A stretch of 52,287 bases of DNA, from the NCBI GenBank assembly GCA_039028635.1, contig JBCCHV010000046.1, positions 1 through 52,287 on the forward strand. Direction: 5' to 3'. Position 1 is the first letter of the stretch. Each line of letters starts with the position of its first letter. Below, piece after piece: positions 14,187 to 24,602 of the stretch. The translations under genes and the position numbers were made by a program. The notes under the pieces were generated by a model that saw only the letters and a program-made list of their open reading frames with translations, was not told the origin of the DNA and made no database searches. Source of the stretch: Acidobacteriota bacterium (GTDB lineage: Bacteria; Acidobacteriota; Thermoanaerobaculia; Multivoradales; JBCCEF01).

Positions 14187-15611
14187 ATGGCCGCCGAAAG
14201 CCCGCAGAATCCGCTCCACCAGCGCTACGCCTCCCGCCCGATGGCGGCGATTTTCTCCGCCCGCAACCGCTATCGCACCTGGCGCCGCATCTGGATTGCC
14301 CTGGCCGAGGCCCAGCGCCAGCTCGGCCTGCCGATCAGCGCCGAGCAGATCGCCACCCTCGAAGCCCGCCGCGACGACGTCGACCTCGAGCGCGTCGCCG
14401 AGCTCGAGCGCCAGACGCGCCACGACGTGGTCGCCCACCTGCGCCACTACGCCGAGCAGACCGGCGACGCCGGCGGCATCCTGCATCTCGGGGCCACCAG
14501 CGCCTTCGTCACCGACAACGCCGATCTCCTGCTCGCCCGCCAGGCCCTCGAGCTGCTGGTCGGTCGGGTGGCGGCGGTGCTGCGCAACCTGGCCGACTTC
14601 GCGCGCCGCCACCAGGACCTTCCGGCCCTCGCCTACACCCATTTCCAGCCGGCCCAGCTCACCACCGTCGGCAAGCGGGCGGGGCTCTGGCTGCAGGACT
14701 TCCACCTCGACCTCGAGGAGCTGCAACACCGCATCGCCAACCTGCGCTGCCGCGGCGCCAAGGGCACCACCGGCACCCAGGCCAGCTACCTGACACTGTT
14801 CGACGGCGACCACGACAAAGTACGCCAGCTCGATCACCTGATCGCCGAGCACCTTGGCTTCGCCCGCCGCGCCGCCGTCACCGGCCAGACCTATCCCCGC
14901 AAGCAGGACAGCCAGATCCTGGCGGCCCTCGCCGGCATCGGCGAGAGCTGCCACAAGATGGGCACCGACCTGCGCCTACTGCAGGGCGTCGGAGAGCTTT
15001 CGGAGCCCTTCGACCAGCACCAGGTCGGCTCCTCGGCAATGGCCTACAAGCGCAATCCGGTGCGCGCCGAGCGCATGTGCGCCCTCGCCCGGCGCCTGAT
15101 GACGGACGCCCTCAACGGCCCCTTGAATACCGCCACCCAGTGGCTCGAGCGCAGCCTCGACGACTCCGCCAATCGGCGCTTGGTGATTCCCGACGCCTTC
15201 CTCACCGCCGACGCCGTCCTCGGCCTCGCCGCCCACATTGCGGAAGGTCTGACGGTACGCGAAGGAGCGGTCGCCAGCCGCGTAGCCCGCGAGCTGCCCT
15301 TCATGGCCAGCGAAACCCTCCTCATGCAGGCGGTGCTGCGCGGCGGCGATCGCCAGGAGCTCCACGAGCGCATTCGCCAGTACAGCCTCGAGGCCCAGAG
15401 CCGACTCGAAGGCGGCGGCAGCAACGACCTCATCGAGCGCATCGTCGGCGACGGCGACTTCCGCCTCGAGCGCGCCGAAGTCGAGAGCTGGCTCGACCCC
15501 CAGGCCTTCACCGGCCGATCCGGCCAGCAGGTCCGGGAGCTCCTCAGCGAAGTCATCGAGCCAGCCCTCGACCAGCTCACCGCCGCCGAGATCGAAGCGC
15601 CAAGGATCTAG
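14187..15611 (+). CDS. purB: Adenylosuccinate lyase
   Basis: 474 aa. Fumarase/aspartase superfamily enzyme that removes fumarate from SAICAR and adenylosuccinate in purine synthesis. Key segments are HLGATSAFVTDNAD, AYTHFQPAQLTTVGKRA (catalytic His), GAKGTTGTQASY and the superfamily signature SSAMAYKRNP. The ATG at 14187 gives the normal N-terminus (MAAESPQNPLHQRYASRPMA); the frame is open upstream to 13968 but would read through the divergent promoter region. Confidence 0.96.
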   Translation: MAAESPQNPLHQRYASRPMAAIFSARNRYRTWRRIWIALAEAQRQLGLPISAEQIATLEARRDDVDLERVAELERQTRHDVVAHLRHYAEQTGDAGGILHLGATSAFVTDNADLLLARQALELLVGRVAAVLRNLADFARRHQDLPALAYTHFQPAQLTTVGKRAGLWLQDFHLDLEELQHRIANLRCRGAKGTTGTQASYLTLFDGDHDKVRQLDHLIAEHLGFARRAAVTGQTYPRKQDSQILAALAGIGESCHKMGTDLRLLQGVGELSEPFDQHQVGSSAMAYKRNPVRAERMCALARRLMTDALNGPLNTATQWLERSLDDSANRRLVIPDAFLTADAVLGLAAHIAEGLTVREGAVASRVARELPFMASETLLMQAVLRGGDRQELHERIRQYSLEAQSRLEGGGSNDLIERIVGDGDFRLERAEVESWLDPQAFTGRSGQQVRELLSEVIEPALDQLTAAEIEAPRI

Positions 15612-15614
15612 TGT

Positions 15615-15760
15615 TTCAGGGGGGCTAAAGGCGCCCCCCTCGCCCGCACGCACATGTCGTGCGGGCTCACCCCCATCCTCGGCGGCTTTTGCCGCCGCCT
15701 CGCGCTTTCGCCCTCGGAAGCCGCCTGCTCGTTAGCAGACGGCTGCTTTCTGCCGATTAG
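15615..15760 (+). repeat. Multi-hairpin repeat, copy 1
   Basis: Starts 3 nt after the purB stop. Successive stems: GGGGGGC/GCCCCCC (about 15618-15638); GCCCGCACG (15642-15650), loop CACATGT, CGTGCGGGC (15658-15666); CGGCGGC/GCCGCCG around TTTT (about 15680-15697); a short GCG/CGC stem; and CCGCCTGCT/AGCAGACGG (one mismatch, about 15721-15742). Copies 2 and 3 follow in tandem about 147 and 159 nt apart. No open reading frame is conserved between copies. Confidence 0.85.
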
Positions 15761-15922
15761 TTACTTCGGGGCTAAAGGCGCCCCCCTCAGGCGCACGCAC
15801 ATGTCGTGCGCCTTCACCCCTCGCCGGCGCCCCCGTCCTCAGCGGCTTTGCCGCTGCCTCGCGCTGATCGCGCTCGAAGGCGTCTGCTCGAATAGCAGAC
15901 GCCCGCTTTCTGCGGATAGGCT
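15761..15922 (+). repeat. Multi-hairpin repeat, copy 2
   Basis: Same layout as copy 1 with compensatory changes. AGGCGCACG (15789-15797), loop CACATGT, CGTGCGCCT (15805-15813) is perfectly paired. CAGCGGC/GCCGCTG surrounds TTT near 15840-15856. The last stem GGCGTCTGCT/AGCAGACGCC (about 15889-15904) is perfect. The loop CACATGT is unchanged. Confidence 0.85.
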
Positions 15923-16110
15923 ATTCCGGGTCCAGAGGCGCCACCCTCGCCTGCGCGGCCCGGGCGAACGCACATGTCGTTCGCCCTCACCCCTCGCCGG
16001 GCGCCCCTCGCCGGGCGCCCCTATCCTCGGTGCCTCCGGCGCCGCCTCGCGCTTTGCGCTCGGAAGCTGTGCACTGGGTTAGGACACGGCTGACTGCTGC
16101 GACAGCAGTT
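15923..16110 (+). repeat. Multi-hairpin repeat, copy 3 (partly degenerate)
   Basis: GGGCGAACG (15962-15970), loop CACATGT, CGTTCGCCC (15978-15986) is again perfect with new base pairs. CGGTGCC/GGCGCCG stem near 16027-16043. The final arm is altered (AGCTGTG ... CACGGCT with a longer loop). A duplicated CCTCGCCGGGCGCC segment lies near 15992-16020. It ends shortly before the rlpA -10 box. Confidence 0.8.
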
Positions 16111-24422: not shown

Positions 24423-24459
24423 GAAAAGCAAAAAGCCGTCTGCTAGTTAGCAGACGGCT
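24423..24459 (-). terminator. Intrinsic terminator at the end of repeat copy 4
   Basis: Perfect 11-bp stem AGCCGTCTGCT (minus) with loop AACT, followed by TTTTTGCTTTTC. A convincing Rho-independent terminator for the hup transcript, formed by the last stem of the repeat. Confidence 0.8.
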
Positions 24460-24602
24460 CCGAGCGCGACTAGCGCGAGGCAGCGCCGCAGGCGCTGAGG
24501 TCGGGGCGCACGGCGAGGGGTGAGGCCTGGCCGGCCGAACCGCACGACGTGGGCGTTCGCCCGGGCCTCGCAGGCGAGGGGGGCGCCTTGAGCCCCCCTG
24601 AA
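24427..24602 (-). repeat. Multi-hairpin repeat, copy 4
   Basis: Minus-strand element homologous to the three copies after purB. It begins TTTCAGGGGGGCTCAAGG, almost the same head as copy 1, with GGGGGGC/GCCCCCC. Then CGAACG/CGTGCG around CCCACGT (one mismatch), CAGCGCC/GGCGCTG around TGC, CTCGCGC...GCGCTCGGAG, and the final AGCCGTCTGCT/AGCAGACGGCT. It lies 3' of hup in the same orientation. Confidence 0.85.

Follow-up and report, generated by a model that had tools for sequence, protein, structure and literature searches.

Behind purB and hup, in the 52,287-nucleotide stretch of an Acidobacteriota genome analysed here (the window), stand several copies of an ordered series of hairpins whose stems change in pairs from copy to copy, and the question they raise is whether these mark a structured RNA, as the initial annotation had argued from the sequence, or something maintained and spread as DNA. 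Three tandem copies follow purB (15615-16099, plus strand) and one follows hup (24433-24602, minus strand); a covariance-model search of the whole window gave no match outside these four. The module runs in the order hp1 (G6C/GC6), hp2, the linker CTCACCCCC, hp3, hp4 and hp5; in the window's species hp2 has 9 bp round CACATGT, hp3 is of the GGCGGC or GGCGCC type, and hp4 has 3 bp between CTCG and CTCGG (Table 1). The shared order described earlier is borne out in tandem copies 1 to 3 and in copy 4, except that hp1 is shortened or broken in copies 2 and 3: the G-run hairpin, ascribed to every copy, comes down to GGGGC/GCCCC in copy 2, and copy 3 has no G-run. The quoted stem pairs GCCCGCACG/CGTGCGGGC, AGGCGCACG/CGTGCGCCT and GGGCGAACG/CGTTCGCCC round CACATGT are all present in copies 1 to 3, but the simple 9-bp stem round CACATGT is missing from copy 4, which has a longer hp2 region, CCTGCGAGGCCCGG...GGCCGGCCAGG, of a type found in other copies too.

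Table 1. Repeat copies and their parts in the window
Feature	Position	Strand	Remarks
purB stop TAG	15609..15611	+	part of CTAG 15608-15611; anchors the array on its left; gene 14187-15611 by gene calls
Copy 1, complete module hp1-hp5, without upstream hairpin U	15615..15757	+	covariance-model match 15617-15745, 140.5 bits
Copy 1 hp1, A-G6-C / G-C6-T	15618..15640	+	near-invariant sequence among copies
Copy 1 hp2, GCCCGCACG-CACATGT-CGTGCGGGC	15642..15666	+	strong covariation
Copy 1 linker CTCACCCCC	15666..15674	+	its first C closes hp2
Copy 1 hp3, GGCGGC/GCCGCC	15681..15696	+	sequence and alignment
Copy 1 hp4, short 3-bp stem flanked by CTC and CTCGG	15702..15713	+	sequence and alignment
Copy 1 hp5, AGCCGCCTGCT/AGCAGACGGCT then GCTTTC	15719..15744	+	no terminator score in scan
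Copy 2, hp1 cut to GGGGC/GCCCC, 13-nt insert after hp2	15767..15905	+	covariance-model match, 94.4 bits
Copy 3, degenerate: G-run hairpin absent, hp5 variable	15956..16092	+	covariance-model match, 58.4 bits
Copy 4, behind hup	24433..24602	-	covariance-model match 24433-24600, 66.7 bits
Copy 4 hp5, 13-bp stem with T-rich tail, terminator-like	24432..24461	-	terminator scan and sequence

Folded as RNA and compared with shuffles, copies 1 and 2 are much more stable (z -4.56 and -4.54) and copy 3 moderately so (z -2.55), while the first 148 nt of copy 4 have no such advantage (z 0.15) and its last hairpin alone has z -3.76. That last stem had been called a good intrinsic terminator; it is indeed terminator-like, but the single site that a terminator scan found at copy 4 (24461-24432) is about what shuffles give (mean 0.9), and the scan of the purB array found none. 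At gathering thresholds, Rfam detected in the window only four tRNAs (a cluster of Thr, Gly, Tyr and Thr genes at 244-789 on the minus strand) and no other family, in agreement with the earlier remark that no named family has this architecture.

The repeat is dispersed well beyond the window. In the genome from which the window comes (6.28 Mb, in an assembly about 95% complete and often broken at repeats), BLAST with copy 1 gave 56 matches, and R1, a covariance model built from 29 copies, gave at least 145 at E<=0.01 among the 150 candidates scored, and the true number may be larger. For 24 of the 145, the start is no more than 300 nt from base 1 of the contig, which is the behaviour of repeats that break assemblies. 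In a genome of the same genus, G001, where the model search covered 1.184 Mb of contiguous sequence (the G001 stretches), 44 matches reached E<=0.01, one of which lies inside a gene and is probably due to chance. A broader model, R2, for which few candidates were scored per genome and the filters were stricter, matched 5 of the 72 genomes of the order and, among the candidates scored, the same 5 of the 148 of the class: the window's genome, G001, G016 (6 matches) and G023 (17, mostly weak), all of family f8, and G040 of family f7, with one weak match in which the succession G-run hairpin, hp2, TCACCCCC, hp3 can be recognised by eye. The linker CTCACCCCC recurs in three families of the order, taking the form CTCACCCC in one G001 subfamily; the letters of hp2 differ greatly between families, its place and shape being the same. 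The exact hp1 pattern gave 0 matches in genome_contigs and 0 in viral_contigs, collections from which records near the window's genome may be absent, and a looser core pattern was found in genome_contigs on two contigs of a single MAG, Acidobacteria bacterium SZUA-115. A search of titles and abstract openings, with most subscription-journal papers outside its scope, found no published account of this repeat. The lengths of the hp1 G-run, the hp1 C-run and the linker C-run are correlated, being 6, 6 and 5 in 43 of 59 parsed copies of the window's genome and in 10 of the 36 parsed from G001, 16 of which have 5, 5 and 4; the linker C-run might compete for the hp1 G-run, though the lengths follow two subfamilies and could go back to one event.

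Covariation is commonly held to be the best evidence for a functional RNA, and selection on one RNA strand is expected to retain G-U and to remove A-C. The paired rewriting of stems, first seen in four copies, is strong with more of them; a covariance model of the kind that the initial annotation had proposed, here built from 29 copies, found further copies, in relatives too. In the alignment of 29 copies, pairing holds in 96.5% of the 1048 cells (as against 85.8% after shuffling and 36.9-53.6% when the partners are slid), both sides vary at 15 of 37 pairs, and the covariation score is 0.265 as against 0.088 for shuffles, 0 of 500 of which reach it, and at most 0.063 for slid partners. For 44 copies from the window's genome, G001 and f8 the score is 0.423 as against 0.119, in an alignment fitted to the model and biased in its favour. 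Among the best 65 copies of the window's genome, the cells off the commonest pair comprise 270 full Watson-Crick exchanges, single changes to G-U (22), to A-C (36) and of other kinds (28), and 18 two-sided unpaired cells; hp2, hp3 and hp4 alone have 178 double exchanges against 20 single changes. The totals of G-U and A-C cells are 52 and 51 for 91 copies, 27 and 29 for alignment A3 (28 G001 and 5 f8 copies), and 59 and 43 for alignment A5 (44 G001 copies, some shared with A3). Helix by helix the counts are mixed, with hp1 in the window's genome (14:5) and hp5 in A5 (31:12) tending toward G-U and hp2 leaning to A-C in all three alignments (7:10, 5:12 and 7:15, G-U first). As a yardstick, eight G001 tRNAs gave 11 G-U and 0 A-C, the tRNA finder itself favouring paired stems.

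Because there is no overall excess of G-U and intermediates are scarce, the paired state was seemingly made or checked in DNA, which points to upkeep of the stems at the DNA level, by template switching or by recognition of DNA hairpins, rather than to selection on one RNA strand. The selection on RNA structure that had been proposed for the window copies is thus disfavoured, by the count of 52 to 51, by the emptiness of both loci in G001 and by the terminal inverted repeats of many fuller copies (both below), and a structure acting in DNA, which the initial annotation had mentioned in brackets, is the better fit. Its further statement that the copies are not mere duplication stands as far as the paired stem changes go, though the family is also a proliferating dispersed repeat. 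Template switching within hairpins has been described as producing paired changes in a single step (PMC8794818). Subfamily structure was considered as a cause of the covariation and set aside: hp2, hp3 and hp4 stem types occur in 33 combinations in 65 copies, and the hp2 to hp4 types have no association beyond that of shuffles, in a test that is weak with so many rare types. Selection acting on both RNA strands would yield the same symmetry between G-U and A-C. The first rival to be weighed is a cis-acting structured RNA in 3' untranslated regions, concerned with processing, stability or regulation, whose stems are under RNA selection. The strength of the covariation is in its favour, as are the lean of hp1 to G-U in the window's genome and the recurrence across families of the linker CTCACCCC(C) with the G-run hairpin, and the mixed helix-by-helix G-U counts lend it some weight; against it is the want of an overall G-U preference, in the three alignments (the last two of which share copies) as in the single changes.

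Comparison with G001 bears on the same point. There, purB (with the stop TGA) is followed by the next gene after 12 nt, as against 541 nt in the window, and the gap behind hup is 103 nt as against 463; between aligned flanks the figures are 50 vs 576 nt at purB and 108 vs 467 at hup. R2 found no copy in either G001 gap, and the one behind hup holds an unrelated terminator-like hairpin. For 13 of the 65 clusters of copies in the window's genome, both flanks had a counterpart in the G001 sequence compared; at these syntenic sites G001 is without a copy in 9 cases, has one on the opposite strand in 3 and one on the same strand in 1. Two of the nine (L031 and L096) match only loosely, their flanks being separated by a gene or by 719 nt, and without them the proportion is 7 of 11. 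So many empty sites count against an RNA that serves its upstream gene in cis. The three opposite-strand sites all lie between convergent genes (L021/L110, L103/G001 C2:158823 and L018/G001 C1:152656), as if they were insertion hot spots or the copies had been inverted. Beyond the hup region, G001 has a copy at L134 3937-4057 (C36:11281-11401), on a contig that shares synteny with this stretch of the window; since the window has no fifth match, this may be a reciprocal presence/absence site. At L039 the junction that remains after removal of the element aligns by eye with TTA in G001, which is suggestive only as a trace of insertion.

With a simple gene finder, 136 clusters were placed relative to genes, 69 in the window's genome, 44 in the G001 stretches and 23 at other G001 loci. 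The upstream gene is on the same strand in 109 of them and on the opposite strand in 22, the remaining 5 having a contig edge there, so the sense position downstream of a gene, observed earlier for four copies, is the rule. Such a position is what an RNA of 3' untranslated regions would have, but the 22 antisense clusters are not, and many copies have a T-tailed hairpin before the module, at which transcripts should stop ahead of it; taking these points with those given above, we regard the RNA explanation as unlikely. Placement relative to stop codons had been named as a check, and the distance from stop to hp1 in the 109 sense clusters proved to be at most 20 nt in 27, 21-39 nt in 7, 40-80 nt in 65 and more in 10. 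In the 40-80 nt group an additional hairpin, U, is usually present and starts at the stop (among the copies listed, for example, TAG running into CAGGCTGCTGAAAAAGCCGCGTGGCGGCTTCTTCAGCGCCTGCTGTTTATTT before CAGGGGGGC), and T-rich bases precede hp1. Where copies lie 13-100 nt from the upstream stop, this is TAG in 29 of 36 cases in the window's genome, with a background of 110 of 302 genes, copy-bearing ones included, and in 26 of 40 in G001, with a background of 338 of 885; some copies directly follow TGA or TAA. Outside the copies, the G001 stretches contain 830 CTAG sites (152 at stop codons, 209 intergenic and 469 within genes), and as only 152 of the 830 are stops, stops look preferred beyond the motif; a preference for CTAG together with the loss of harmful insertions accounts for part of the concentration at stops and not for all of it.

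As to the genes on both sides, 49 of the 136 clusters lie between convergent genes, 44 in sense and 17 in antisense in co-directional gaps, 4 between divergent genes, and 22 at an edge on one side; the baseline for convergence is 72 of 552 gaps of at least 30 nt in contigs C1 and C2 of G001. This would suit a bidirectional terminator cassette spread by gene conversion, in which RNA selection on two strands would purge G-U and A-C alike, and so would the T-rich tail ahead of hp1, the opposite-strand G001 copies at three convergent sites, and the hp5 behind hup, which takes the place of the other terminator-like hairpin of G001. The 44 sense copies between co-directional genes, where termination in one direction should be what counts, do not suit it, even with the 17 antisense ones there, nor do the purB array with its empty terminator scan, the module hp1-hp4 with no T-tract of its own, or end repeats at CTAG, which a terminator does not need; we consider such a cassette unlikely.

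These end repeats are the inverted sequences TAGCAGG...CCTGCTA, which bound many of the fuller copies, mostly in CTAG, the left TAG often being the stop codon. A full copy consists of the left terminal repeat with hairpin U (TAGCAGGCTGCTGAAAAA...), a T-rich stretch, hp1, hp2, linker, hp3 and hp4, and a right hairpin ending ...TTTTTCAGCARCCTGCTA; TAGCAGGCTGCTGAAAAA has 87 occurrences in the window's genome and its reversed control 0. A search for inverted ends with up to 2 substitutions and lying at most 400 bp apart, confined to fetched loci that had been chosen for the repeat or its left end, gave 36 units in the window's genome and 13 in G001. Those above 100 bp number 33 (106-382 bp) and 8 (172-220 bp), and 28 of the 33 and all 8 fall within 171-257 bp. 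At 58 of 66 ends in the window's genome and 14 of 16 in G001 the outward base agrees with CTAG, a few ends not being exactly TA, and in the 33 longer units of the window's genome the base before the left TA is C in 28, T in 3 and G in 2. A module profile match, in some cases weak, is present at 24 of 30 loci fetched by the left end; six loci (L035, L039, L041, L042, L043 and L103) have both ends and score above 100 bits, and two G016 copies have similar ends. The window copies themselves have no visible terminal inverted repeats. Copies that begin a few bases after the stop, those behind purB among them, look as if the U palindrome had been deleted; at L025 only CTAGCAG-CCTGCTG is left of it. 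The units of 36-50 bp each consist of one palindrome, either U or the right hairpin, and the ends may be two small hairpins, not the limits of one unit. A clean target duplication could not be made out, the intergenic DNA of G001 being too diverged to offer a well-aligned empty site; most ends read C-TA...TA-G, and the TA or CTAG may belong to the repeat itself.

An enzyme that might mobilise such a unit was sought in the window's genome among the transposase families PF13358, PF01609 and PF01797. The assembly has no PF13358 (IS630-type) transposase, and none of the three families yielded an autonomous element with matching ends. The sole PF01609 transposase was rejected as the mover, having other inverted ends and being itself inserted into hp1 of a copy. 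This insertion, at about 1001-2440 of L261 (contig C54) with ends CACTGCTGTCCCACAAA / TTTGTGGGACAGCAATG, has split the copy; the two halves bear GGCTAGAGGC and GGCTAAAGGC, which may represent a target duplication some 10 bp long. A gene recurring beside the copies was considered too and set aside: the 293 predicted proteins of the repeat loci in the window's genome include nine multi-locus families, the largest with 5 members, and one member from each of the six largest looks by eye like an ordinary paralogue, with no transposase among them. As to a possible derivation from a group IIC intron, the genome gave one RVT_1 match, a single-copy reverse transcriptase of 498 aa at L152 871-2367 (contig C38).

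The PF01797 (Y1_Tnp) genes bring in a further possibility, an IS200/RAYT-type REP element moved as single-stranded DNA by a Y1 transposase. Such genes are present in all four genomes searched (2 in the window's genome, 4 in G001, 3 in G016 and 3 in G023), strand-specific insertion behind TAG would account for the orientation of the copies, and REPINs likewise have compensatory stem changes according to passages of PMC3116915. The repeat is absent, however, from both 3.2-kb Y1 loci of the window's genome, L046 and L047 (best E 0.44), so that a RAYT origin has no support there, and TAG is preceded mostly by C, where a GTAG foot would have G; we consider movement by a Y1 enzyme very unlikely. Other repeats do accompany the Y1 genes, namely many GTGGCACCTGTGTGCC-like units at about 2500-2930 of L046 (contig C84) and a tandem repeat pair at about 1940-2020 of L047 (contig C42).

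We think it likely that the repeats are a non-coding mobile element of the MITE/REP kind. The unit is short and has terminal inverted repeats, it is dispersed, and it is present or absent between relatives; in the window's genome neither a matching autonomous element (among the three families searched), an IS630 transposase nor a repeat-flanked RAYT was found, most units there are without a GT[AG]G foot, the window copies reach no Rfam threshold, and as a structured RNA it shows no favouring of G-U over A-C overall, the helices being mixed. An enzyme acting in trans would join the element to the TA inside CTAG. Insertion into a C-TAG stop would re-create TAG and leave the protein unharmed, which would explain the copies that begin at stop codons, and insertions elsewhere in genes would mostly be lost. 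Either hairpin U, followed by its T-rich tail, or hp5, as in the copy behind hup, could act as a terminator, and copies that supply one would for this reason be tolerated and perhaps co-opted. The window copies, to judge from the others, would have lost the U palindrome by deletion and then been duplicated locally. The paired stem changes would arise or persist in DNA through template switching in hairpins, through a protein that recognises folded DNA, or through both. Against this scheme, TA within CTAG does not cover all copies, since some adjoin TGA or TAA and the stop is TAG in only 26 of 40 in G001. A bolder form of the idea, possible but on balance doubtful, is a self-spreading stop-and-terminator cassette that would enter the TA of CTAG stops, re-supply both stop and terminator, and carry hairpins recognised as folded DNA and rewritten by template switching, so as to mimic the covariation of an RNA family. 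The repeat, with stop codons apparently as its landing sites, may alter how numerous genes of one lineage end at the 3' side, and the family, its covariation strong and its stem types reassorted among copies, is a test case for separating covariation made in DNA from RNA selection.

Among known systems, the IS630/Tc1-mariner MITEs, such as RUP of pneumococcus, are like the present repeat, in passages of PMC3049150, in being short, non-coding and of high copy number, with inverted repeats at the ends, TA at most ends and a mostly intergenic position; insertion at TA is given for IS630-family elements in part of PMC2170065. They differ in that here PF13358 is lacking from the assembly of the window's genome, the target duplication is putative, and the interior is made up of covarying GC-rich hairpins in a constant order. 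Two further repeats of Streptococcus pneumoniae, as described in the same passages of PMC3049150, also invite comparison: SPRITE is a terminator-like repeat enriched near gene 3' ends, and BOX is modular and highly folded; compared by description only, they are unlike the present repeat, a copy of which often starts at the stop codon itself and forms a multi-hairpin module. REPs and REPINs with their RAYTs, to go by parts of PMC3116915, PMC3733652 and PMC6006769, share palindromes, extragenic position, more than 100 copies, tandem clusters and compensatory stem changes with it, and the REP foot, in passages of PMC6006769, is GT[AG]G before the hairpin; most units here are without a GTAG foot, no Y1 gene of the window's genome lies beside the repeat, and the repeat is larger, with its hairpins in an ordered series. 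Rho-independent terminators have, as do U and hp5 of copy 4, a GC hairpin and a T-rich tail, whereas the present repeat forms a dispersed family in which a long additional module follows the T-rich stretch. What seems new is the combination of covarying hairpins strung together in a set order, end repeats lying in CTAG and often at a stop, and covariation without an overall preference for G-U.
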